Positions 218 through 10,276 of a stretch of 33,338 bases of DNA are shown here, piece by piece. The first letter of the stretch is position 1. Every line of letters begins with the position of its first letter. Location: contig MNDT01000031.1 in NCBI GenBank assembly GCA_001915065.1, forward strand, positions 1 through 33,338, read 5' to 3'. The DNA is from an archaeon 13_2_20CM_2_53_6. Its GTDB lineage: Archaea; Thermoproteota; Bathyarchaeia; 40CM-2-53-6. The notes beneath the pieces are model-generated. The model was not told the DNA's origin. It saw only the letters and a list, made by a program, of their open reading frames with translations, and did not search any database. A program made the position numbers and the translations under genes.

Positions 218-446
218 CGACAGAATTCGCCCAGAATAGGCGCGGATCAGCAATCAGGGAGGGGGGTCCCACGCGGAGGGTTTCGCACGCTTGGACGGAC
301 CCCACACGGCAACTATAGAAAACGGCCAATCAGCCCGTTCTGCCCGATAAACCGGAGTTCTCGCCCAGAACGGTTTTAGATGGCGAGAGGACCCCTTCCA
401 GGATTTAGAAATAAAAAATTTCCCACGACACAAAAGCACTCTTTGG
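218..446 (-). repeat. Dispersed ~230-bp repeat, copy 1 (inverted relative to copy 2)
   Basis: Read on the minus strand, this segment matches 8563-8793 on the plus strand over nearly its whole length, with scattered, mostly transition-type substitutions. Shared blocks include a CCAAAGAG...TTGTGTCG left end, an AT-rich TATA-like stretch, a TTCTGGGCGAG-type motif present once near each end, and a core. In the core GGGGTCC (263-269) and GGACCCC (297-303) are complementary and could form a stem. A short reading frame ending WDPPP-stop is shared by both copies, but copy 2 has stops upstream of it, so coding is doubtful. The rest of 1-581 (1-217 and 447-581) holds no gene I can support. Confidence 0.8.
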
Positions 447-581
447 AAGAAGTTCATGTTTGAAAATCGTTCAGAAAGCCGAGAGAACCTGAAGGACCAT
501 CCCCTCTGCCCAAGAGACTCGAGACCACCGGGTCCCAGCGACACAACACTCGTCTGCCTGAAAGGCCCCCCGGAAACGTCG

Positions 582-1958
582 CTATCGCATGCTTGCGTAG
601 CAGTCGATTATCGAAGCGATATATCTTATTCCGTTGATGAAATCCTCGGTCGTCGTATACTCGTTCGGCGCGTGAGCGTGAGAGTAGGCCGAGGGTGGCC
701 CGCTGCCCGTCCAGATAGACTCCATGCCCAGCCGCTTGGTAAAGAGATAGTCGGGACCCGACGCCGGGTTCCGCGGAATAACCACCGCACTGCTCCCATA
801 CGCGATCTTCGCCGCCTTCTCCGCTGCCAATGCTATCGGCGCCGATGGTCTCGTAAATGATGGTTCTATGAAGCCGAGCCCCCGGACCTGGATATCGTCG
901 AACCCGTGACCGTGCAAGTGCTCCTTCAACAGCCGCAGCTGCTTCCTCGGATTCTGGTTATAGACGAGCCGGAAGTCTATCTTCAACATCGCACTCCCCG
1001 GCAGCACAGTCTTCGAGCCCTCGCCGATGTACCCGGCCTTGAAGCCGCAGATCGTACACGTAGGCTCAGTCATGTAACGCCTCAACGCCTCCCGGTTACT
1101 CTTCGCCTTCAAAAAACTCTTGAGACCCCACTCCTTCAACAGGTTCTGGCCCCTAAACGGAACCTTCTCCAACAGACGCGACTGGGCCGGCGAGAAACGT
1201 TCCACGTCATCGTACCAGCCCTTGACGAGAATCTTGTCATCAGGGCCTTTGATCGTGGACATTGCCCAGACAAGCCGCCAGGCCGGATTCTCAGCTAGTG
1301 GAGCATAAGATGAGTGCAGATCCTCGCGAGCCTTTTTGCAGCGAAGCTCGACGTACAAGAGACCCTTGACCCCGAGGCTGATCTTGGCCCGGCCAGTCTC
1401 GTCAAAATCACCATCATAACAGACGACAGAATCCGCCTTCAACCGCTCAGCATTCTCCTCGACAAAGCCGGGAAGATGCGGACTACCAATCTCCTCCTCG
1501 CCCTCGACAATGAACTTGAGATTGAGAGGAACATCACCCGTCGCTTTCAGAAAGCTCTCCGTGGCCTTGATGAAAGACGTCACGTTGTTCTTACTATCCG
1601 CCGCACCCCGCGAGACGATCTTCCTACCCTGCATCTTCGCATCGAAAGGTCCAGAGACCCATTTCTCCAGAGGCTCCGGAGGCTGAACATCATAATGGCC
1701 ATAGATCAGGAGAGTCTTCGAGCTGGACTTCGACTTGGCCTCGCCGTAGACCACGGGATTACCGTTCTTGACGGGCAGAATCTTCGTCTTTACTCCAGCC
1801 ATCTCCATCTGCTTCTTTACTATCCTCGCGCAGTCCTCAATCCCAATCTTCTGGGCGGAAACGCTCGGCTGCTTGAGGAGGGTTCGAAAGTCCTGAAGAA
1901 ACCGGTCCTTGTTCTTCGATATGTACTCGAGAGATCTGTTCAGACTAGCGCTTGCCAC
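582..1958 (-). CDS. M20-family metallopeptidase (dipeptidase/carboxypeptidase-like)
   Basis: This is a 458-residue zinc-dependent exopeptidase of the M20 (ArgE/DapE/CNDP-like) family, probably cytosolic and acting on dipeptides or N-acyl amino acids. The metal-site motifs are in the expected order: YGHYDVQPP with H88, RGAADSKN with D121, EGEEEIGS (residues 152-159), CYDGDF around D182, and SAYSHAHAPNEY with H427/H429 near the C terminus. The dimerisation (lid) domain lies between about 195 and 370. Its length is typical of the CNDP-type subgroup. The start is GTG; an in-frame TAG lies shortly upstream and no ATG is available between them. A TATA-like TGTATAG near 1995-2001 would give a short leader. 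The exact substrate cannot be told from sequence; succinyl-diaminopimelate desuccinylase is less likely because no lysine-pathway genes are adjacent. Confidence 0.92.
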   Translation of the reverse strand: MASASLNRSLEYISKNKDRFLQDFRTLLKQPSVSAQKIGIEDCARIVKKQMEMAGVKTKILPVKNGNPVVYGEAKSKSSSKTLLIYGHYDVQPPEPLEKWVSGPFDAKMQGRKIVSRGAADSKNNVTSFIKATESFLKATGDVPLNLKFIVEGEEEIGSPHLPGFVEENAERLKADSVVCYDGDFDETGRAKISLGVKGLLYVELRCKKAREDLHSSYAPLAENPAWRLVWAMSTIKGPDDKILVKGWYDDVERFSPAQSRLLEKVPFRGQNLLKEWGLKSFLKAKSNREALRRYMTEPTCTICGFKAGYIGEGSKTVLPGSAMLKIDFRLVYNQNPRKQLRLLKEHLHGHGFDDIQVRGLGFIEPSFTRPSAPIALAAEKAAKIAYGSSAVVIPRNPASGPDYLFTKRLGMESIWTGSGPPSAYSHAHAPNEYTTTEDFINGIRYIASIIDCYASMR

Positions 1959-2055
1959 GGTAGCGATGGAGCTCTATTGAGTAGATAGCTTCTTCTATAC
2001 AGGCCAACACCGCGTCAAGCTTGCGTCATTCTCTCGAGACTAGGAATCTTTAGAG

Positions 2056-2430
2056 CTAGCTCGGGGAAGAATCGTCTTCTGACGCCTTCTCTAGACCCTT
2101 TCTCGTACGCCTTGAAACCAGTGTCGAAGTCAGCAACGAGAGGGTTAGGGCAGGAACAATTATGAGAGACACGAGGAAGGGGAGGGCTCCCGGCGTTATT
2201 GTGGTCTCTGTTGGCGTCTGAGTCTTCGTACTGTTCGCGAGTTGCACAGTTGCATTTGGATTGAATGCGGTGGTCGTTGTTCCGGAGGTCGAATTTGTGC
2301 CCGTCGTTCTTGTTGACGGGGAAGATTGGGAAGGGACTGCTAGGATACCTGGAAGTGCGATGAACCCTAATCCAGTTATGACTCCGAGCATAACGACCAA
2401 TGTCAGCCTTGTTCTCGCGCCTAGCTTCAA
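2056..2430 (-). CDS. Small two-TM protein with Thr/Ser-rich linker
   Basis: This 124-residue protein is not recognised. A hydrophobic segment at about 8-32 looks like a signal peptide or N-terminal anchor. It is followed by a low-complexity Thr/Ser/Asn linker (about 34-80, with several N-x-S/T sequons), a second membrane helix at about 81-104, and a short charged tail beginning SRRTRKG that is likely cytoplasmic. The composition fits an archaeal surface-exposed, possibly glycosylated protein. An in-frame TAG lies 21 nt upstream of the TTG start, and no ATG or GTG is available in that short interval. It is in the same orientation as the flanking peptidase and winged-helix genes, but gaps of about 95 bp make an operon uncertain. 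Confidence 0.6.
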   Translation of the reverse strand: MKLGARTRLTLVVMLGVITGLGFIALPGILAVPSQSSPSTRTTGTNSTSGTTTTAFNPNATVQLANSTKTQTPTETTITPGALPFLVSLIIVPALTLSLLTSTLVSRRTRKGLEKASEDDSSPS

Positions 2431-2524
2431 GCTTCGACTCGCCTTCTTCTACTGCGGCCTTCTATGGTATTGATTGGTCGTCCCCTCGGCATAATCCCAC
2501 ACGTTAGAACGGTCCGTACCATCA

Positions 2525-2971
2525 TCAGAACGGTCTCAGCCTCCACGCCCTGTAAGTCTCAGTCCATGAAACGAGTGCCGCGGATCCTCCAAAGACGAAC
2601 GCCATGATATTATGGGCTGAAAAATTGGGCGGATAGAAGATGGGGTAGAGGACCAGCATTACAGTAAACATGGTCGAATAGAACAGGTAGCGTGGCAGAA
2701 GGAACCCGAGAACGCCGACAAAGTCTCGCAGCACACCCACCTTTACATGCTCAATGAGATGATATTCCCCCGTCAAGTCCTTCTCCAGCAATCCCAGCGT
2801 CCGAAGTTTCTCTAAATGATGCATTGCAACGCTAGGGCTGCTCAATCCGAGGGCCCGCTGCACAGGCCTCACTCCGACAGACCGGTTCTTCGAACCAAGT
2901 ATGTGCCAGTAGACCCTCAGCGTGACCCCTCGCAGTTCTGATTCTACAATCTTGTCACGGTCCTTCTCCAA
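2525..2971 (-). CDS. Membrane-anchored winged-helix transcriptional regulator
   Basis: The 148-residue product has an N-terminal winged-helix DNA-binding domain (about 5-73). The recognition-helix region contains LGLSSPSVAMHHLEKLRTLG, and the wing reads GLLEKDLTGEYHL. Two hydrophobic helices follow at about 84-110 and 118-137. wHTH domains followed by one or two membrane helices recur in archaea and are thought to be membrane-tethered one-component regulators; the ligand is unknown. The start is TTG with no good ATG in frame. The gene is divergent from the beta-propeller gene at 3097, sharing a 125-bp intergenic region, so regulation of that neighbour or of itself is a reasonable inference. 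Confidence 0.8.
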   Translation of the reverse strand: MEKDRDKIVESELRGVTLRVYWHILGSKNRSVGVRPVQRALGLSSPSVAMHHLEKLRTLGLLEKDLTGEYHLIEHVKVGVLRDFVGVLGFLLPRYLFYSTMFTVMLVLYPIFYPPNFSAHNIMAFVFGGSAALVSWTETYRAWRLRPF

Positions 2972-3064
2972 CGCCGACCCTCCGAAGAGACAACATTGCC
3001 GGAGGATAGAATCTTACGCTTTAGGGAGGCGTTCTGTTCTCTGAACGCCCCGTTCGAAACACTG

Positions 3065-3072
3065 GAATTAAG
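3065..3072 (+). promoter_or_regulatory. TATA-like box for the beta-propeller gene
   Basis: GAATTAAG sits 25-32 nt upstream of the ATG at 3097. This is the archaeal TATA spacing expected when transcription begins at or next to the start codon (a leaderless mRNA). Confidence 0.4.
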
Positions 3073-3096
3073 CCCCAGCACAGAGAGTATGTTACC

Positions 3097-5010
3097 ATGC
3101 GACCCCTAAGCCTTGGTACAGCCGTTTCTGTTCTGTCGCTGATAGCGCTAACCATGGTCCCGGTTACGATGTACCTGACTCATAGCCCAGCCACTCCAAC
3201 AGTTCACTCGTTAACTCCCTTCTCATCCTACGAGGAGCTACAACAGTTCATATTCACAAAAAGCTGTAATGGCCTTGAAGTCCGTGGTCTATACAATCCC
3301 AACCCGGCTCCCCAACCCTTGTCCGGGAATGAACTGAGCGCAACTGCCGCATCCAGTTCCTCCTACTCGGGCTCGATTCCAACCCACTCAGAGACCAACG
3401 CACAAGTCGCGGGGGTCGACGAACTGGACACGGTGAAGAATGATGGGACATACCTTTACACCGTCACAAACAACACGGTCGCCATAGTCCTCGCTTATCC
3501 GGTTGTAGACGCAAAACAAGTGGCGAGGATCTCCGTAAACGGCTCTATCCAAGGAATCTTCATCGACGGCAGCCGGCTGGTGGTCATCACCCAACATTTC
3601 CAGTATTATCCAGTGCCTTACTACACCACGGGGGGTCCAGCAGTCGCCGGAGGAGTAAGCACGATAGCCGTGCCCGCCCACTCTTACGACCAGACCAGCT
3701 CAGTGTGGATCTTCGACGTCTCCAACCACTCCAATCCAGTCCTAACCACCACGGTCATATCTAATGGAACACTGTCTGGGGCTCGTCTGATTGGAGACTA
3801 CGTGTACATGGTTTCGACCCAGCCCATCGGGTGCTCAGAGCCAGTCCCACTTCCAGAAAACATTCTCGATGGCCATGCATTGACAATAATGCCCGGCCAG
3901 ATCTACCACTCTGACATTGCGGACTACGCTCAGAGCTTTACGACAGTCATCGCCGTTGACGTCAGCCAGATCAACCCGGCTCCGGCTGCGAAGACATTCC
4001 TGATCGGAACAAGTAGCAACATCTACGTCTCACTCAACCAGATCTACCTCACACAGCCGATCTGGAGCCAGACAGAACAGACTACCATTCACAGGATCAG
4101 CATCAATGGGTCTTCCATAAATTACGAAGCCACCGGGACAGTTCCAGGACATGTACTCAACCAGTTCTCGATGGACGAATACAACGGCTACTTCCGGATA
4201 GCAACCAGCGAATACGGTTACGCCAGGGTCCTCGCCTTTCAGACCGCAGTCTCCACGGTGTCGCCGCAGCAGCAGACCGACTTGTACGTGCTGGACAGCG
4301 GCCTTCGAACTATTGGAAGTCTCGAAAGATTATCACCGGGAGAAGCGTTCTACACTTCCAGGTTCATGGGGGATAGAGCCTACCTGGTCACGTATCAGAG
4401 GATGGACCCATTGTTTGTAATAAGTCTCCAGGACCCGTCCCAACCAAAGGTGCTCGGCCAGCTCAACATAACCGGAGTGTCGGACTATCTACAACCCTAT
4501 GATGAGACCCACTTGATAGGCCTAGGAAAATCCTCGACGAACGTGACGTGGGAGAACGCTGCTCTCTTCCAAGGCCTCAAGCTCAGCTTCTTCGACGTCT
4601 CCGACCCCAATCATCCCGTAGACACCAGCAATTTCCTGGTTGGAGATCGTGGCAGTGACTCGCCGGCATTGACCGACCACAGAGCAGTACTCTTCGACGA
4701 GTCGCTGAATCTGCTTGTCATCCCGGTCGAGATCGCGCAGGCGCAACAGAGTTCGACCTATCCGTGGGCTTACAATCCTCCTGTCTGGCAAGGCGCCTAC
4801 GTGTTCAACGTAACAGGCCAGAACGGACTCGTCTTCAGAGGAGGAGTAACTCACCTACCCACCGGTGAACTGCCCAGCTACTACAATACCAACCTCTTCG
4901 TCGATAGAGCACTCTACATCGGCGGCGTACTGTATACTGTGAGCAACAGCATGGTGAAGATGAACAGTCTGGCGGATCTGACGGAGATCGGCTCCGTTAG
5001 CTTGGCGTAG
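3097..5010 (+). CDS. Secreted beta-propeller domain protein (PF09826-like)
   Basis: This 637-residue extracytoplasmic protein begins with a signal peptide or N-terminal anchor (hydrophobic 8-28). The diagnostic block of the archaeal/bacterial 'beta propeller domain' family is at 101-117: NAQVAGVDELDTVKNDG. It is followed by many blade-like strands with motifs such as YLYTVTNNTVAIVLAYP and SSVWIFDVSNHSNPV. There are no C-terminal membrane helix and no evident catalytic motif. Members are usually predicted secreted proteins with Ig-like or propeller architecture; biochemical function is unknown, and binding of a surface polymer or partner is only a guess. The ATG start is favoured by the TATA-like box at 3065-3072 and by the signal sequence starting there. 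The gene is convergent with the downstream PfkB-family kinase, with only 4 bp between stop codons. Confidence 0.88.
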   Translation: MRPLSLGTAVSVLSLIALTMVPVTMYLTHSPATPTVHSLTPFSSYEELQQFIFTKSCNGLEVRGLYNPNPAPQPLSGNELSATAASSSSYSGSIPTHSETNAQVAGVDELDTVKNDGTYLYTVTNNTVAIVLAYPVVDAKQVARISVNGSIQGIFIDGSRLVVITQHFQYYPVPYYTTGGPAVAGGVSTIAVPAHSYDQTSSVWIFDVSNHSNPVLTTTVISNGTLSGARLIGDYVYMVSTQPIGCSEPVPLPENILDGHALTIMPGQIYHSDIADYAQSFTTVIAVDVSQINPAPAAKTFLIGTSSNIYVSLNQIYLTQPIWSQTEQTTIHRISINGSSINYEATGTVPGHVLNQFSMDEYNGYFRIATSEYGYARVLAFQTAVSTVSPQQQTDLYVLDSGLRTIGSLERLSPGEAFYTSRFMGDRAYLVTYQRMDPLFVISLQDPSQPKVLGQLNITGVSDYLQPYDETHLIGLGKSSTNVTWENAALFQGLKLSFFDVSDPNHPVDTSNFLVGDRGSDSPALTDHRAVLFDESLNLLVIPVEIAQAQQSSTYPWAYNPPVWQGAYVFNVTGQNGLVFRGGVTHLPTGELPSYYNTNLFVDRALYIGGVLYTVSNSMVKMNSLADLTEIGSVSLA

Positions 5011-5014
5011 TCAG

Positions 5015-5962
5015 CTAGTCAAAATATTTCCGATAAGACTCTTCTAGGTCTTTCCTCGTCGGGCTTCCACGCGTCTCCGGATGACATGCTTTCAACGCTC
5101 CAGCCATGTTGGCGAACCGAAACGCGTCAATGTCGTTGACGCCCAGAACCTTGTAGGCTGCAAAGGCTCCGACGAACGCGTCGCCACTCCCGGTCGTGTT
5201 GACCACTTTCCGTCCAAGCTTCTCAAGCGAGATTCTTGGAATCCTTGATAGCTTGCCTGCCGAGTAGAAGGCGGCGCCTCTATTTCCCAGCGTGACGAGA
5301 ATTTTTGCTTTGGGCGCGGCCTTGTTCAACGAGGATAATGCTTGATCAAGCCGCTTGACACCTGCGAAGAGAGGCGCTTCATGTTCGTTAAGGACCAAGT
5401 AGTCTATCTCCTCCATGTCGTCCTCGAACTCGCTCAGCCCGTATCTTGTCAGAACGCCCGGGTGCCAGATTACGGACTTGCGGAGTCTTCGGCCCTCGGC
5501 CAGCAACCTTCCGGCAACTTGTCGTGGTGGGTCGATTACGACGAGCGTCTGGATGTTTGCGAGGACGGATTGGACTGTGGGTAGCATTAGATGGTCCTGG
5601 TTGAGTCCCGCGTTTGCGCCGAAGTGGGTCTCGATGACGTTGCTGCCTTTCTGGTCGACTGTTATGTAGGCTTGTCCGGACTCGAAGCGGTCGAGCATCT
5701 GGACGGTTGATGCGTCAACGCCTTCCTGTTTTAGGATGGAGATCTGTTTCTCCGCTACATCATCTCTTCCTAGACATGCGATGAGTGCGACGTGTCCTTG
5801 GCCGAGTATTCTGGTGGCGGCGACCGCCACGTTGCCTCCTTTACCCCCCGGCACCCGGTCGATCTTCTCTACGACTACCTCCTGTCCGGAGCGGGGGATC
5901 TGTTTGACGAAGAGGTTGATGTCCCAGTTGAGGGCGCCGGTGATGGCTAGTTCTGGCGGCAA
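5015..5962 (-). CDS. PfkB-family carbohydrate kinase (ribokinase-like)
   Basis: The 315-residue cytosolic kinase transfers the ATP gamma-phosphate to a sugar or nucleoside hydroxyl. Family signatures are clear: substrate-binding GGKGGN (39-44) after an N-terminal ITGALNWDINLF segment, and the C-terminal signature NTTGSGDAF (255-263) with catalytic-base D261 and the GSGD anion hole. The length is typical of ribokinases and archaeal nucleoside kinases. The neighbouring PRPP synthase on the same strand (75 bp upstream) makes a role in ribose or nucleoside phosphorylation feeding PRPP attractive, but the substrate is not determined by sequence. The start is TTG; the only nearby ATG upstream is out of frame and an in-frame TAG precedes it. 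Confidence 0.9.
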   Translation of the reverse strand: MPPELAITGALNWDINLFVKQIPRSGQEVVVEKIDRVPGGKGGNVAVAATRILGQGHVALIACLGRDDVAEKQISILKQEGVDASTVQMLDRFESGQAYITVDQKGSNVIETHFGANAGLNQDHLMLPTVQSVLANIQTLVVIDPPRQVAGRLLAEGRRLRKSVIWHPGVLTRYGLSEFEDDMEEIDYLVLNEHEAPLFAGVKRLDQALSSLNKAAPKAKILVTLGNRGAAFYSAGKLSRIPRISLEKLGRKVVNTTGSGDAFVGAFAAYKVLGVNDIDAFRFANMAGALKACHPETRGSPTRKDLEESYRKYFD

Positions 5963-6036
5963 TGATCTCCCGCGCGATCGCGAGCCATTGTCCTAATGAA
6001 TGTTCAAGCTGTACACTGGTCTGCGTTCAGCATCGT

Positions 6037-6939
6037 CTATGGTCTTGTTTTGAGAGCTGCGGCTATGACGGGGGCGACGGAGACGGTGCTGATGGGGCTT
6101 GGAATTGTGTCTGTTCCGACTATTCTTGTGGCTCCTGCGGCTCTGATCCGTTTCAGTGCTCCGTCCGCTAGCACGGGGTGGGTGCAGAGTACGAAGATTC
6201 GTCTGGCGCCTTTTTTCTTGCAGGCCTTTGCGGCTTCTGCGATGGTTCCTCCGGTGCTGATGATGTCGTCTGCGAAGACAATGTCTCGACCCTTGACGTC
6301 TACACTTCCTGTGTCCATTTCGAGTCTGGATTTTGTCTCTCCTTCTTTGCGGACCCGTCTCTTGGTGAACGCTGTGTGTTCAGCGTCTAGCTCCTTTGCC
6401 ACTGTTCCGGCCCACTGTTCGGCCTCCTCGTCAGGTCCGACGACGATTGGTTTCTTCGGTCTCAGGTTCTCGCGTGCGTACTTGCCGAGGAGGTTCATTG
6501 CTGAAACGTTCTGGGCGGGGATCTTGAAGACTTTGGAGACGTCTCCGAGCCGGTGGAGGTGGCAGTCGATCGTGATGATGGATGTTGTGCCGGCGGCTTC
6601 GAAGAATTTTGCGAGGGAGGCCGAGCTTAGAGCTTCGCCCGGGTAGAAGCGGGAGTCTTGGCGGGCATAGGCTAGGTATGGGGTGACTCCGGTTATGGAG
6701 GTGGCACCCATGTCTCGTAGTGTGTCTGCGATGAGGAGGTATTCGAAGACGTACTCGTCTGGTGTCCGGTAGAGTGACTGGATCAGCGCGACGTCTTGGC
6801 CTTTGACCTCCTCGTGGATCCGGATGTATTTTTCGCCGTCGGGGAATCTCTTGATCTCGATCCGCCCAGGTTCTTGGCCGAGCTGCTTTGCCACCTTCTC
6901 GGCGAGGCTGGTGGAGGCTGAGCCGCCGATTACTATCAT
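6037..6939 (-). CDS. prs: Ribose-phosphate pyrophosphokinase (PRPP synthase)
   Basis: This 300-residue enzyme makes PRPP from ribose 5-phosphate and ATP for purine, pyrimidine, histidine and tryptophan synthesis. Recognisable elements are FPDGEKYIRI near 32-41, the YARQDSRF ATP-site segment (91-98), DCHLHR (125-130), the flexible-loop KRR (193-195), and the PRPP-binding loop FADDIISTGGT (222-232) with acidic D224/D225. A longer reading frame extends upstream to 7062. I chose the ATG at 6939 because the protein then starts MIVIGGS as in archaeal homologues, and because a TATA-like box lies 30-39 nt upstream. The length is slightly above the usual ~285-290 for archaeal members. It is divergent from the KaiC-like gene. 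Confidence 0.95.
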   Translation of the reverse strand: MIVIGGSASTSLAEKVAKQLGQEPGRIEIKRFPDGEKYIRIHEEVKGQDVALIQSLYRTPDEYVFEYLLIADTLRDMGATSITGVTPYLAYARQDSRFYPGEALSSASLAKFFEAAGTTSIITIDCHLHRLGDVSKVFKIPAQNVSAMNLLGKYARENLRPKKPIVVGPDEEAEQWAGTVAKELDAEHTAFTKRRVRKEGETKSRLEMDTGSVDVKGRDIVFADDIISTGGTIAEAAKACKKKGARRIFVLCTHPVLADGALKRIRAAGATRIVGTDTIPSPISTVSVAPVIAAALKTRP

Positions 6940-6968
6940 AGAGAAAGGGTAGCGTGGCGGCCGGGGTC

Positions 6969-6978
6969 TAATAAAAGC
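6969..6978 (-). promoter_or_regulatory. TATA-like box between prs and the KaiC-like gene
   Basis: On the minus strand this reads GCTTTTATTA, 30-39 nt before the prs ATG, fitting a leaderless prs transcript. The same AT-rich stretch lies ~25-33 nt before the GTG at 7002 on the plus strand, so it may serve both divergent genes. Confidence 0.5.
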
Positions 6979-7001
6979 TGAGCCAGAAGCGAGCGAAGGC
7001 G

Positions 7002-7898
7002 GTGTGGGATGTGGCAGATTCATCACAGTTGGTAGATGTCGGTTCCGAGTGTCACTTCCCAACTCTCGTTCCGGTTACAAGCCACCTTTCGAACCACTGC
7101 ACAACCCGTTTGGTGCGGCGTGCATTCTTGAAGAGAGCGGCTGATGATCATAGGGTCGAGGCCCTCCAGCCGACCGGGATTCCAATTCTCGACAAGGTGA
7201 CCGGGGGCGGCTTTCCTCGGCCGTCAGCGATTGCTCTTCTGGGCCCTATTGGCAGTGGGAAGTCGATGCTTGTCCGGGAGCTGGTGACGAACTTCATCCG
7301 TCAAGGATGTAGCCTACTCTACTACTGTATCGATGATCCGGCGGACATTGTCAAGCTTGGACTGGAGGATCATCATATCGCCGTGGACAAGATCGAGTCG
7401 GAGGGCCGGTTGGAGTTTGTTGACATGTTCTCGCTCGGGGCGCAGAAGCTGGCGGAGTCGTTGCCGAAGATGGATCCGTCGGAGATACTGGATGAGACTT
7501 TGAAGTTTCAAGACCTATTGAGCTATGGTCGGGCCTTTGCGTTGAAACCGGGTCTGGGTCCGAAGATTATAGTGATGGACTCGATCACGCCATTCTTTCT
7601 CCTGACTGAAGCGCGAAAGGTATTCCAGTACGTCCAGGTGATGCGGTTTGCGACTAGGATAGCGCGGGCTGTGACGATCGCGATCCTCCACACGGAGGTT
7701 GTGGATGAGTCTTTGGAGAATGCCACGGCGAATTTGGCTGATGGTGTGATCGAGATGAGGAAGAGGAGTGGTGAGATCTTGTTGAAGGGTGGTACGATGA
7801 AGGTGTTGCGGATTGGGCGGAACCCGGTAGCGTCTCGGGGATACTTCTACCAGATCACCCAGCAAGGAATAGTCTTCTCGAACACGCCAGTGATCTAG
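7002..7898 (+). CDS. KaiC/RadA-like single RecA-domain ATPase
   Basis: This is a 298-residue RecA-superfamily ATPase of the archaeal KaiC-like group. Residues 57-72 (PTGIPILDKVTGGGFP) are the canonical KaiC lead-in. Walker A is GPIGSGKS (81-88) and Walker B is IIVMDS (189-194). A C-terminal section (LLKGGTMKVLRIGRNP...YFYQITQQGI) matches the family's closing strands. There is one RecA domain only. Where KaiC proteins usually have an EE catalytic pair after the 'YCxxE' strand, this one reads YYCIDDPADIV, i.e. Asp-Asp. The first ~50 residues do not look like the family. A GTG at 7113 or TTG at 7128 could be the true start, although the TATA-like stretch at 6969-6978 favours a leaderless start at 7002. 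Roles of archaeal KaiC-like proteins range over signalling and regulation; none can be assigned here. Confidence 0.82.
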   Translation: MWDVADSSQLVDVGSECHFPTLVPVTSHLSNHCTTRLVRRAFLKRAADDHRVEALQPTGIPILDKVTGGGFPRPSAIALLGPIGSGKSMLVRELVTNFIRQGCSLLYYCIDDPADIVKLGLEDHHIAVDKIESEGRLEFVDMFSLGAQKLAESLPKMDPSEILDETLKFQDLLSYGRAFALKPGLGPKIIVMDSITPFFLLTEARKVFQYVQVMRFATRIARAVTIAILHTEVVDESLENATANLADGVIEMRKRSGEILLKGGTMKVLRIGRNPVASRGYFYQITQQGIVFSNTPVI

Positions 7899-7915
7899 GA
7901 AGCTAGATTTTGGTT

Positions 7916-8512
7916 CTACCTTGTTGGCTGGCTGGTTGGGACGGAGACTTCTGCGCGACGGATCGCGGTGGTTCTGGCCAGGCTGTTGTTCAAGACGAGG
8001 GACAGGGCCAAGACGACTATTGCGACGATGAAGATGTAGAATCCAGTCTCGAATCCCCCAGTGTACGTGGTTCCGAAGACTGCTCCGGTACCGATGGGTC
8101 CTGATGCGCATAGAGGGAACAATAGGCAGTAGGTGGATGTCACGTAAGCTATTGTGATGGTGTAGGCGACTGGTGTTAGGATTGACACTACTAGTCCGGC
8201 TGCCAAGTATTTCCGGACGAGAGTGAGGCCACCAGTGAGGGCGAGTGATGCCGCGACCAGGGCTAGAATCAGCACTATGAGGCTTGAAAAGGTGAATGTC
8301 TGAGAGATGCTGGCAGTCGAGAGAGAATCGGGCCGGCCTAGTCTGCGGAGGGCCGCTGAACCTGGCGGGCTCCTGAGCGCCCAGCGGGCTAGTGATACCG
8401 TGTCGAAACCCAAGAGTTCGTAGATTCCCCACCAGGGGAGGAAGACGCTGGCGAGGGCTATTGCTGCGCCGATCATCGCGACAGAATTGATTCTCCAATA
8501 CACGGTGCTCAT
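7916..8512 (-). CDS. Four-helix membrane protein of unknown function
   Basis: The 198-residue protein is not recognised. Predicted membrane helices are at about 9-29, 74-98, 103-125 and 155-174, with a charged C-terminal tail. Between helices 1 and 2 lies a ~45-residue loop beginning FLPWWGIYELLGFDT. C129 and C135 lie in the loop after helix 3 and could pair. The ATG start is followed directly by an amphipathic N terminus. It is convergent with the KaiC-like gene (17-bp gap). A long overlapping antisense frame (7515-8498) exists, but its Arg/His/Pro-rich composition marks it as a shadow. Confidence 0.7.
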   Translation of the reverse strand: MSTVYWRINSVAMIGAAIALASVFLPWWGIYELLGFDTVSLARWALRSPPGSAALRRLGRPDSLSTASISQTFTFSSLIVLILALVAASLALTGGLTLVRKYLAAGLVVSILTPVAYTITIAYVTSTYCLLFPLCASGPIGTGAVFGTTYTGGFETGFYIFIVAIVVLALSLVLNNSLARTTAIRRAEVSVPTSQPTR

Positions 8513-8562
8513 GCTATTGACGGATTGTTGGTTCTGAGCTCTAACCTTGGCTGGGCAGAGCG

Positions 8563-8793
8563 TCCAAAGAGCACTCTTGTGTCGCTGGAATTTTCTATTT
8601 TCTAAACTTATGGAGGGGTCGATTTGCTGGCTGAAACGTTTCTGGGTGAGATTTTCCGGTTTATCGCGCAGAACAGGCTAATCGCCCGTTTTCTATAATT
8701 GCCGTGTGGGGTCCAGTCATGCTTGCGAAACCTACCGTGTGGGACCCCCCTCCCTGATTGCCGATCAGGGCTTGTTCTGGGCGAGTTTTCTCG
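8563..8793 (+). repeat. Dispersed ~230-bp repeat, copy 2
   Basis: This is the inverted partner of 218-446. It contains GGGGTCC (8708-8714) complementary to GGACCCC (8742-8748), and a perfect hairpin CCCTGAT (8752-8758) / ATCAGGG (8764-8770). An AACaGG...CCcGTT pairing lies just upstream. A TTCTGGGYGAG motif is found near both ends of the element, and a TATA-like TTTTCTATTTTCTAAA lies near its left side. The whole intergenic space 8513-8837 is essentially this repeat; no protein gene is supported within it. Confidence 0.8.
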
Positions 8794-8837
8794 CAGGAGT
8801 AATCTTCGATTGTAGCGGCTGGCAGGGTCGAGCTTTT

Positions 8838-10148
8838 CTATTCCATCGACTCTGGGATTTCTTTGAGCGAGCGTACGGGCGACAGTAGGACCCAGAGAAA
8901 GGTGAGAGATCCTCCGAGTACGGCTATGCCGATGGCATTCCGCAGACCGAAGAAGGTCCCGAGTAATCCTCCGGTGAGAGCACCGAGCGGTATCGTGCCC
9001 CAGACTAGGAATCGCATTGTCGCGTTCATTCGCCCCTGAAGGCGGATTGGGACGATGGCTTGTCTTAGGCTAACTTGGTTGATATTGTAGACAACTACTC
9101 CGATGAAACTCACGAACTGGCCTGCCATAATGGCGAGAAGATACCAGTTGACGTCCAGGCCGAACAGGGCGAATAGCGGGGATGCGGTGAGGGATCCTGA
9201 TAGGTAGTAGGGAATACCACCGAGTCCTCCTATGAGCGCGCTTCCGATTATGGACAGTCCCATCCCTATTCTCGCCGCTATTCTGGGTGCGAGAATGACT
9301 CCAACGAGAGAACCAATGCTGGCTATGCTGAAGATCAGTCCTTCGGCTAGTGCTACATTCGATGTCGAGATTCCGAGGGATAGTAGGAAGAATGGTAGTA
9401 TCGTGAAGAGGCCAGTGCCGAAGAAGTTGAATGTTCCTGTGGAGCCTGCTATCATCCGGAGTCTCTTGTCGCCGAGTACAACCCTCAAGCCTTCCCGCAT
9501 GTCCCCGAAAACAGAAGCTTTCGAGGTCCCCAGATCAATAGATTCGTTATGCTCGATGCGAGCGAGCGTGAATGCTGATGCGAAGAATGAGCAGGCGTCG
9601 ATGGCTATTGCAATCGGCGCAGTGACTATTCCAATAACAATCCCCGCCATGGTGGGTCCGGCCGCTTGGGCCACGGAGGCACTTGCCTGGAGCTTGCTAT
9701 TTCCTTCGACCAGTTGTTCCTTTCTCACGAGGGCTGGGAGGAAAGACTGGTATGTGATATCGAAGAAGACTTGGAGGAATCCGACAGAGAAGCTGATTGC
9801 GTAGAGGAAGAGGATTCCCAGCTGAGTTATCATGCCGAAGATGGCTGCTATCGGGATGAGCGCCAAGAGTGAGCCTCTGAGAATGTTCGACGTGACCATG
9901 ATCCGCTGCTTTCTGTGGCGATCGACCCAAACGCCGACGAATAATCCGAAGAGGAGCCAGGGAACCGATCCCATGAAAATAAGAATTCCCTGCTCGGTAG
10001 GATTCGAGTGCAGTATGATGACCGCGGTCAATGGTAGAGCGAGCGTTGTAAACTGGCTGCCGAACTGCGAGATGGTGTCGGAGGTCCAGAGCTTCAGGAA
10101 GCTGTGATTCCGCCAGAGCGTCTCCTTCTGGACGGTCGCCGTCTCCAT
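8838..10148 (-). CDS. MFS transporter (MFS_3 / EntS-like exporter group)
   Basis: This 436-residue major-facilitator transporter has about 12 membrane helices. The start region WRNHSFLKLWTSDTISQFGSQFT is typical of the MFS_3 (enterobactin exporter/macrolide efflux-like) branch. The conserved loop between helices 2 and 3 appears as GVWVDRHRKQRIMV. Probable role: proton-driven export of a small hydrophobic compound; the substrate is unknown. The frame is open upstream to 10214, but those extra 22 residues (MTVLCDYLECATLIC...) are not family-like, so the ATG at 10148 is preferred. It has no operon partner; the next upstream gene on the same strand starts 129 bp away. Confidence 0.88.
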   Translation of the reverse strand: METATVQKETLWRNHSFLKLWTSDTISQFGSQFTTLALPLTAVIILHSNPTEQGILIFMGSVPWLLFGLFVGVWVDRHRKQRIMVTSNILRGSLLALIPIAAIFGMITQLGILFLYAISFSVGFLQVFFDITYQSFLPALVRKEQLVEGNSKLQASASVAQAAGPTMAGIVIGIVTAPIAIAIDACSFFASAFTLARIEHNESIDLGTSKASVFGDMREGLRVVLGDKRLRMIAGSTGTFNFFGTGLFTILPFFLLSLGISTSNVALAEGLIFSIASIGSLVGVILAPRIAARIGMGLSIIGSALIGGLGGIPYYLSGSLTASPLFALFGLDVNWYLLAIMAGQFVSFIGVVVYNINQVSLRQAIVPIRLQGRMNATMRFLVWGTIPLGALTGGLLGTFFGLRNAIGIAVLGGSLTFLWVLLSPVRSLKEIPESME

Positions 10149-10276
10149 GCAATGCTGGACTCTGCCGTCACAAATAAGGGTCGCGCACTCGAGGTAGTCA
10201 CATAGGACAGTCACATGTAGTGTTGAGATGAATTAGCATTGTGAAATCCTAGAAGAAGAAAGGCGCTAAGAAATCA

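Follow-up and report, generated by a model that had tools for sequence, protein, structure and literature searches.

Dispersed intergenic DNA repeats with mosaic interiors in one family of Bathyarchaeia: a probable case of ectopic gene conversion

Repeat copies in the window and the gene block between them

The window (the whole stretch of 33,338 nucleotides analyzed here) is contig C42 of the draft genome of a soil archaeon, 69 contigs with the total length of 1.79 Mb. It contains two copies of a non-coding repeat in inverted orientation, located at 218–447 on the minus strand and at 8563–8793 on the plus strand. A search of the same genome with positions 8500–8850 as a query aligned them with 79% identity (E=3e-48). 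A sequence-only reading of the contig had described an inverted pair of about 230 bp in gene-free DNA; the pair is real, and its coordinates agree with ours. The features of the locus are as follows.

218–447, minus strand: repeat copy 1, A-type, full length, 79% identity to copy 2
448–8562, no strand assigned: stretch separating the inverted copies; gene block inverted relative to the MFS gene in genome G016
582–1958: M20 gene
8563–8793, plus strand: repeat copy 2, A-type, full length (own-genome search, profile match)
8564–8606, plus strand: 5' leader of copy 2, CCAAAGAGCACTCTTGTGTCGCTGGAA, followed by A/T-rich TTTTCTATTTTCTAAAC (alignments)
8640–8650, plus strand: internal motif of copy 2, TTCTGGGTGAG, consensus TTCTGGGCGAG (alignments)
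8664–8673, minus strand: inverted motif of copy 2, TCGCGCAGAA when written as the plus strand (alignments)
8752–8789, plus strand: 3' tail of copy 2, the palindrome CCCTGATTGCCGATCAGGG plus CTTGTTCTGGGCGAGTTTT, conserved in all types
8838–10214: MFS gene

Copy 1 starts 218 bp from the contig end and matches the family profile at positions 227–436 (187 bits, HMM positions 3–212). The closest relative of copy 2 within the genome is located at C53:6485–6710 (87% identity). Judging by conservation across copies, the unit extends approximately from CTCCAAAGAGC to GGGCGATTT and is about 228–233 bp long. The complementary blocks listed in the sequence-only reading (GGGGTCC/GGACCCC, CCCTGAT/ATCAGGG and AACGG/CCGTT-type) were all found, as were the motif it had called duplicated, TTCTGGGCGAG, and an A/T-rich stretch at the left-hand side, where it had placed a TATA-like sequence.

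In genome G016, the M20 gene and the MFS gene are neighbors that converge across a repeat-free gap of about 64 bp, and the same adjacency is seen in G011. In the window, the block from the M20 gene to the gene of a KaiC-like ATPase is inverted relative to the MFS gene, as compared to G016 and G011, and this block of about 8.1 kb is bounded by the two inverted repeat copies. The corresponding regions are G016:C62:7697–10495 and positions 448–10214 of the window; in the latter, a repeat copy lies at each end of the inverted gene block (~8 kb). Given this location, the copies are plausible substrates of the inversion. We do not go beyond plausible, since the right-hand junction exists without an element in genome G007, where the site matching copy 2 (G007:C63:550–904) is unrelated intergenic DNA.

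Copy number, types and distribution

The repeat had been counted as present twice, an underestimate that reflects the use of a single contig. The recommended search of the own and related genomes yielded many further copies. A single-copy query retrieved 18 full-length copies from the genome (the pair in the window and about 16 others), and a sequence-only profile, 39 copies, of which about 19 belong to type A and about 20 to type D. Iterated profile searching of fetched loci produced 197 unique copies. They are mostly full length (about 225 bp), and their median pairwise identity is 53%. An overlap with predicted genes was seen for 4 of 201 copies. Three main types were distinguished: A, which includes both copies from the window, D, which is the largest, and E.

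All types share the leader CCAAAGAGCAnTTTTGTGTCGCGnGGA, which is the most conserved part, the internal anchors GTTGAAAC/TCTGAAAC, TTCTGGGCGAG and GCGCAGAAT, and the tail GATTnnnGATCnGGGCTTnTTCTGGGCGATTT; the GCGTGAA anchor is common to types A and D. The hallmark of type A is the A/T-rich GGGAATTTTTTTATTTCTAAAT after the leader. The conserved ends, a leader and a tail of about 40 bp each, enclose an interior that is constrained in length and exists in several alternative versions. In 99 D-type copies there are almost no indels, yet most interior columns are variable. A D-type copy followed by an A-type copy in tandem is a common arrangement, with a gap of about 27 nt between the profile matches. 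Tandem units may also be separated by spacers of about 75 bp, and nested copies occur as well.

The leader also precedes other, GGTAAC-rich bodies. A related repeat composed of a leader of about 38 bp and a GGTAACnnTnTTGGTAACCnnnGATGGTAAC body was observed at L023 (~699, minus strand), L044 (~2006, minus) and L014 (~1747, plus), and the same combination, at L150 (~1324, minus) and L173 (~1319, minus); the window contains none. The occurrence of the same leader on GGTAACnnTnTTGGTAACCnnnGATGGTAAC bodies indicates that leaders and bodies have recombined as modules. Genome G008 contains about eight copies of one more repeat, of about 75 bp (TACCCCCGGGGGGGTCGAGAAATAGTTAGTrGGAA), some of which adjoin the 225-bp elements. 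Examples are C8:457–531, C12:21595–21667, C4:253–328, C50:6598–6674 and the flanks of L130 and L143. This repeat has no copies in the window.

The distribution of the repeat was studied in a set of 41 genomes, all compared genomes being draft metagenome bins. Matches were found in 20 of the 21 sampled genomes of the family (18 of 18 members of the genus and two of three other family members), with 1–47 copies per matching genome, and in none of the 20 genomes outside it. In a class-wide set of 201 genomes, about 180 genomes outside the family contributed a single extra match, which is weak and partial (E=7e-4 per genome), as expected by chance. Hence, the suggestion of a lineage-specific repeat is borne out at the level of one Bathyarchaeia family. 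The named records carrying the 5' leader are mostly Candidatus Bathyarchaeota archaeon MAGs, which places the host in a Bathyarchaeia lineage; no viral contigs with the leader pattern were found, and a literature search for this repeat in Bathyarchaeota returned nothing relevant. A full-length D-type element is also present at positions 7097–7299 (plus strand) of L066 (JAJPJY010000138.1), a contig whose record title is just "bacterium isolate Centralia_MAG_577", which therefore is probably a mislabeled Bathyarchaeia bin.

Conserved sites and mosaic interiors

As judged by the neighboring genes, many copies occupy matching intergenic sites across species, with the orientation preserved. Genomes G008 and G016 share about 16 such loci, G000 and G007, about 14, and some sites are common to five or six species. 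Of the further G016 sites, two had both flanks located in G008, and in either case the gap there is large enough to hold an element or an array. E-type copies are located 53–182 bp upstream of an M20 peptidase gene, in the same orientation, in eight species (L207, L210, L223–L232); other E-type copies lie near an MFS gene. Divergent (promoter) gaps constitute 26 of 171 gaps with an element and 37 of 95 element-free gaps, that is, the elements avoid them. The orientation preference is not significant (p=0.15 and 0.13). A terminator role, that is, a sense-oriented element after stop codons, seemed promising on redundant counts and was rejected when the signal lost significance after de-duplication and splitting by type.

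At the sites shared by G008 and G016 and by G000 and G007, ortholog identity is 93% in the most conserved third of columns and 60% in the least conserved third, and fourfold sites in the same comparisons are 82–84% identical. The pooled element identity is 78% vs. 84% at fourfold sites in one comparison and 84% vs. 82% in the other. As the pooled element is thus about as divergent as fourfold sites, the excess divergence is limited to interior columns and particular loci. Four ortholog pairs illustrate the latter (identical positions in the two flanks and in the element, respectively): L152/L169 (82/84 and 228/236; 173/209), L149/L165 (181/195 and 147/150; 151/206), L148/L159 (84/88 and 52/60; 163/212) and L138/L157 (27/31 and 553/609; 154/213). 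In these pairs taken together, the flanks are 87–98% identical and the elements, 72–83%. The type itself may switch at one site between species: L118 is D-type and L061 is A-type, and L017 is A-type and L138 is D-type. A position-by-position identity profile averaged over all ortholog pairs was uninformative, since it mixes loci with alignable and with replaced flanks.

Among 15 D-type ortholog pairs, 14 have at least one interior window that is clearly closer to a non-orthologous copy than to the ortholog. The identity to the ortholog and to the paralog is, for example, 0.56 vs. 0.96–1.00, and often 0.5–0.7 vs. 0.9–1.00; choosing the best of many paralogs favors the paralog by construction, but values of 0.96–1.00 are still far above the family median. 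Moreover, the compatibility of neighboring sites exceeds that in permuted site order (p=0.001 for each of the genomes G016, G008 and G000), and linkage within these genomes decays over about 50 bp. Together these are a signature of short-tract recombination. Exact tracts shared by copies from the same genome have the median length of 11–14 nt, and 95% do not exceed 36 nt. The longest is 84 nt, and no donor–recipient pair with a fully identical long tract was caught.

We consider it probable that the family is a dispersed mosaic intergenic DNA repeat, confined to one family of Bathyarchaeia, in which ectopic gene conversion at mostly fixed sites exchanges the interiors. The copies mostly keep their positions between genes as species diverge; gene conversion among dispersed copies would replace interior stretches, with the conserved ends and anchors serving as homology for the exchange. 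The ends themselves may be kept for a DNA-binding protein or for recombination itself.

Alternative readings and known intergenic repeats

The main competitor is a host cis-acting DNA element (a terminator, an insulator or a nucleoid-protein site) under selection, with mosaicism as a side effect. It agrees with the conserved blocks held at fixed spacing with almost no indels despite the identity of about 53%, with the scarcity of copies in divergent gaps, and with the constant position of E-type copies upstream of the M20 gene in eight species. Protein binding at the leader and the tail would explain the spacing constraint. However, the lack of a significant orientation preference, of any single gene context and of a known motif makes this a possible rather than a likely account.

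A still-moving family of non-autonomous, MITE-like transposons, one of the options raised in the sequence-only reading, seems less likely still. Like MITEs, including archaeal ones (reviewed in PMC10969869), the repeat is short, non-coding and multi-copy and has sharp boundaries. The sharp ends with unrelated flanks, the tandem and nested arrangements, and the absence of copy 2 from the matching G007 site, along with its 87% match on C53, are all in accord with mobility. The family may have originated from a non-autonomous mobile element, but the MITE hallmarks that were tested are missing. Unlike MITEs (PMC10969869), the elements have no terminal inverted repeats, and their GC content resembles that of the flanks rather than being AT-rich. 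Target-site duplications are absent: the mean longest flank repeat is 4.45 vs. 4.43 in permutations for type A and 4.24 vs. 4.35 for type D. Most comparable copies occupy conserved sites, and both extra G016 sites traced to G008 leave room for the element. No clean empty site was seen among the sites compared, and no autonomous partner with the same ends was noticed among the fetched loci.

The interiors might instead be actively replaced in fixed genomic sockets by a dedicated recombination system, that is, by nuclease- or integrase-driven cassette exchange. This we regard as improbable, and gene conversion would account for the exchange rather than a dedicated cassette-exchange enzyme. If dedicated exchange did operate, it would create lineage-specific combinations of variants at the same sites, and archaea would possess a programmed system for non-coding diversification.

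A family of structured small RNA genes with their own promoter, the main idea of the sequence-only reading, is very improbable. The A-type copies do have a conserved A/T-rich, TATA-like stretch, but it is missing from D-type copies, which make up half of those in the own genome. In the recommended test for compensating substitutions in aligned copies, four stems (those named earlier and one further hairpin) were examined in 29 closely related A-type copies. Paired cells constitute 80.5% vs. 80.6% in shuffled data, two pairs are changed on both sides vs. 4.4 in shuffles, and the covariation score is 0.087 vs. 0.088. In the clearest hairpin, CCCnGAT/ATCnGGG, one position varies freely, and its partner pairs with it in just 12 of 29 copies. 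When all column pairs were searched in 99 D-type and 63 A-like copies, no helix was seen to covary; the highest-scoring pairs are mostly not Watson–Crick and reflect linked variants. Consensus folds of single subtypes on the plus strand yielded column-shuffled z-scores of about −3.4 to −4, but the minus strand scored about equally in two of three subtypes, and this control ignores dinucleotides. The RNAalifold consensus structures were weak overall and subtype-dependent, and for two of three subtypes the two strands gave similar results; they were superseded by pair counting and by dinucleotide-controlled folding of single copies. The latter gives z-scores near zero, on average −0.3 for type D, −0.6 for A and −0.3 for E, with means from −0.2 to −0.9 over both strands and the opposite strand no worse. 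Rfam has no match to the window at the gathering threshold and none to four loci up to E=1, in agreement with the statement that no known family matches. The 160 aligned copies made the pairing hypothesis testable, and pairing failed; reverse-complementary blocks within a repeat are poor indicators of RNA folding. The view that the repeat is not a protein gene stands: no reading frame is open across copies, and all six frames contain on average about 1.8–2.8 stops.

Finally, short-read misassembly exchanging repeats among loci is highly unlikely. The draft state of all these metagenome bins and the proximity of some copies to contig ends (218 bp for copy 1) speak for it, but the exact shared tracts are short, and at many sites both flanks keep their order and the interior alone is changed, which would require two misjoins within about 200 bp each time. 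Neither the existence of the family nor the conservation of its sites hinges on this question.

The repeat family, with many dispersed non-coding copies whose modular, mosaic make-up results from exchange between copies, fits the description of an intergenic mosaic repeat. The best reading, as far as the parts of the sources consulted describe such repeats, is that it works like the bacterial NIME, BIME and BOX repeats (PMC3898611, PMC3049150), and we assign it to none of them. NIMEs are described in these sources as 70–200 bp composites of dRS3 and RS repeats, occurring in arrays and thought to promote recombination and rearrangement (PMC3898611, PMC3049150); the dRS3 unit is given as ATTCCC(N8)GGGAAT, 20 bp with 6-bp inverted repeats (PMC3898611). 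The archaeal repeat resembles NIMEs so described in being a composite intergenic repeat of similar size found in arrays (PMC3898611, PMC3049150). It differs from them in being a single unit of about 225 bp with a leader and a tail, in the lack of any visible dRS3-like repeat in its consensus sequence, and in belonging to another domain of life. Interior exchange at fixed sites is a feature of the archaeal repeat absent from the NIME features described in the consulted parts of these sources (PMC3898611, PMC3049150). ERIC is a simple 127-bp repeat, BIMEs consist of palindromic units in arrays, and BOX is built of boxA–boxB–boxC modules (PMC3049150). Like these, the archaeal family is made up of non-coding copies between genes that number in the tens to hundreds, some of which are composite or mosaic; unlike ERIC, BIMEs and BOX, it lacks such architecture, and no stem covaries.

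The family provides an uncultured archaeal group with a counterpart of the bacterial intergenic mosaic repeats that drive recombination and genome rearrangement. Their copies at shared and different sites form natural sets of orthologs and paralogs for measuring ectopic gene conversion in Archaea.
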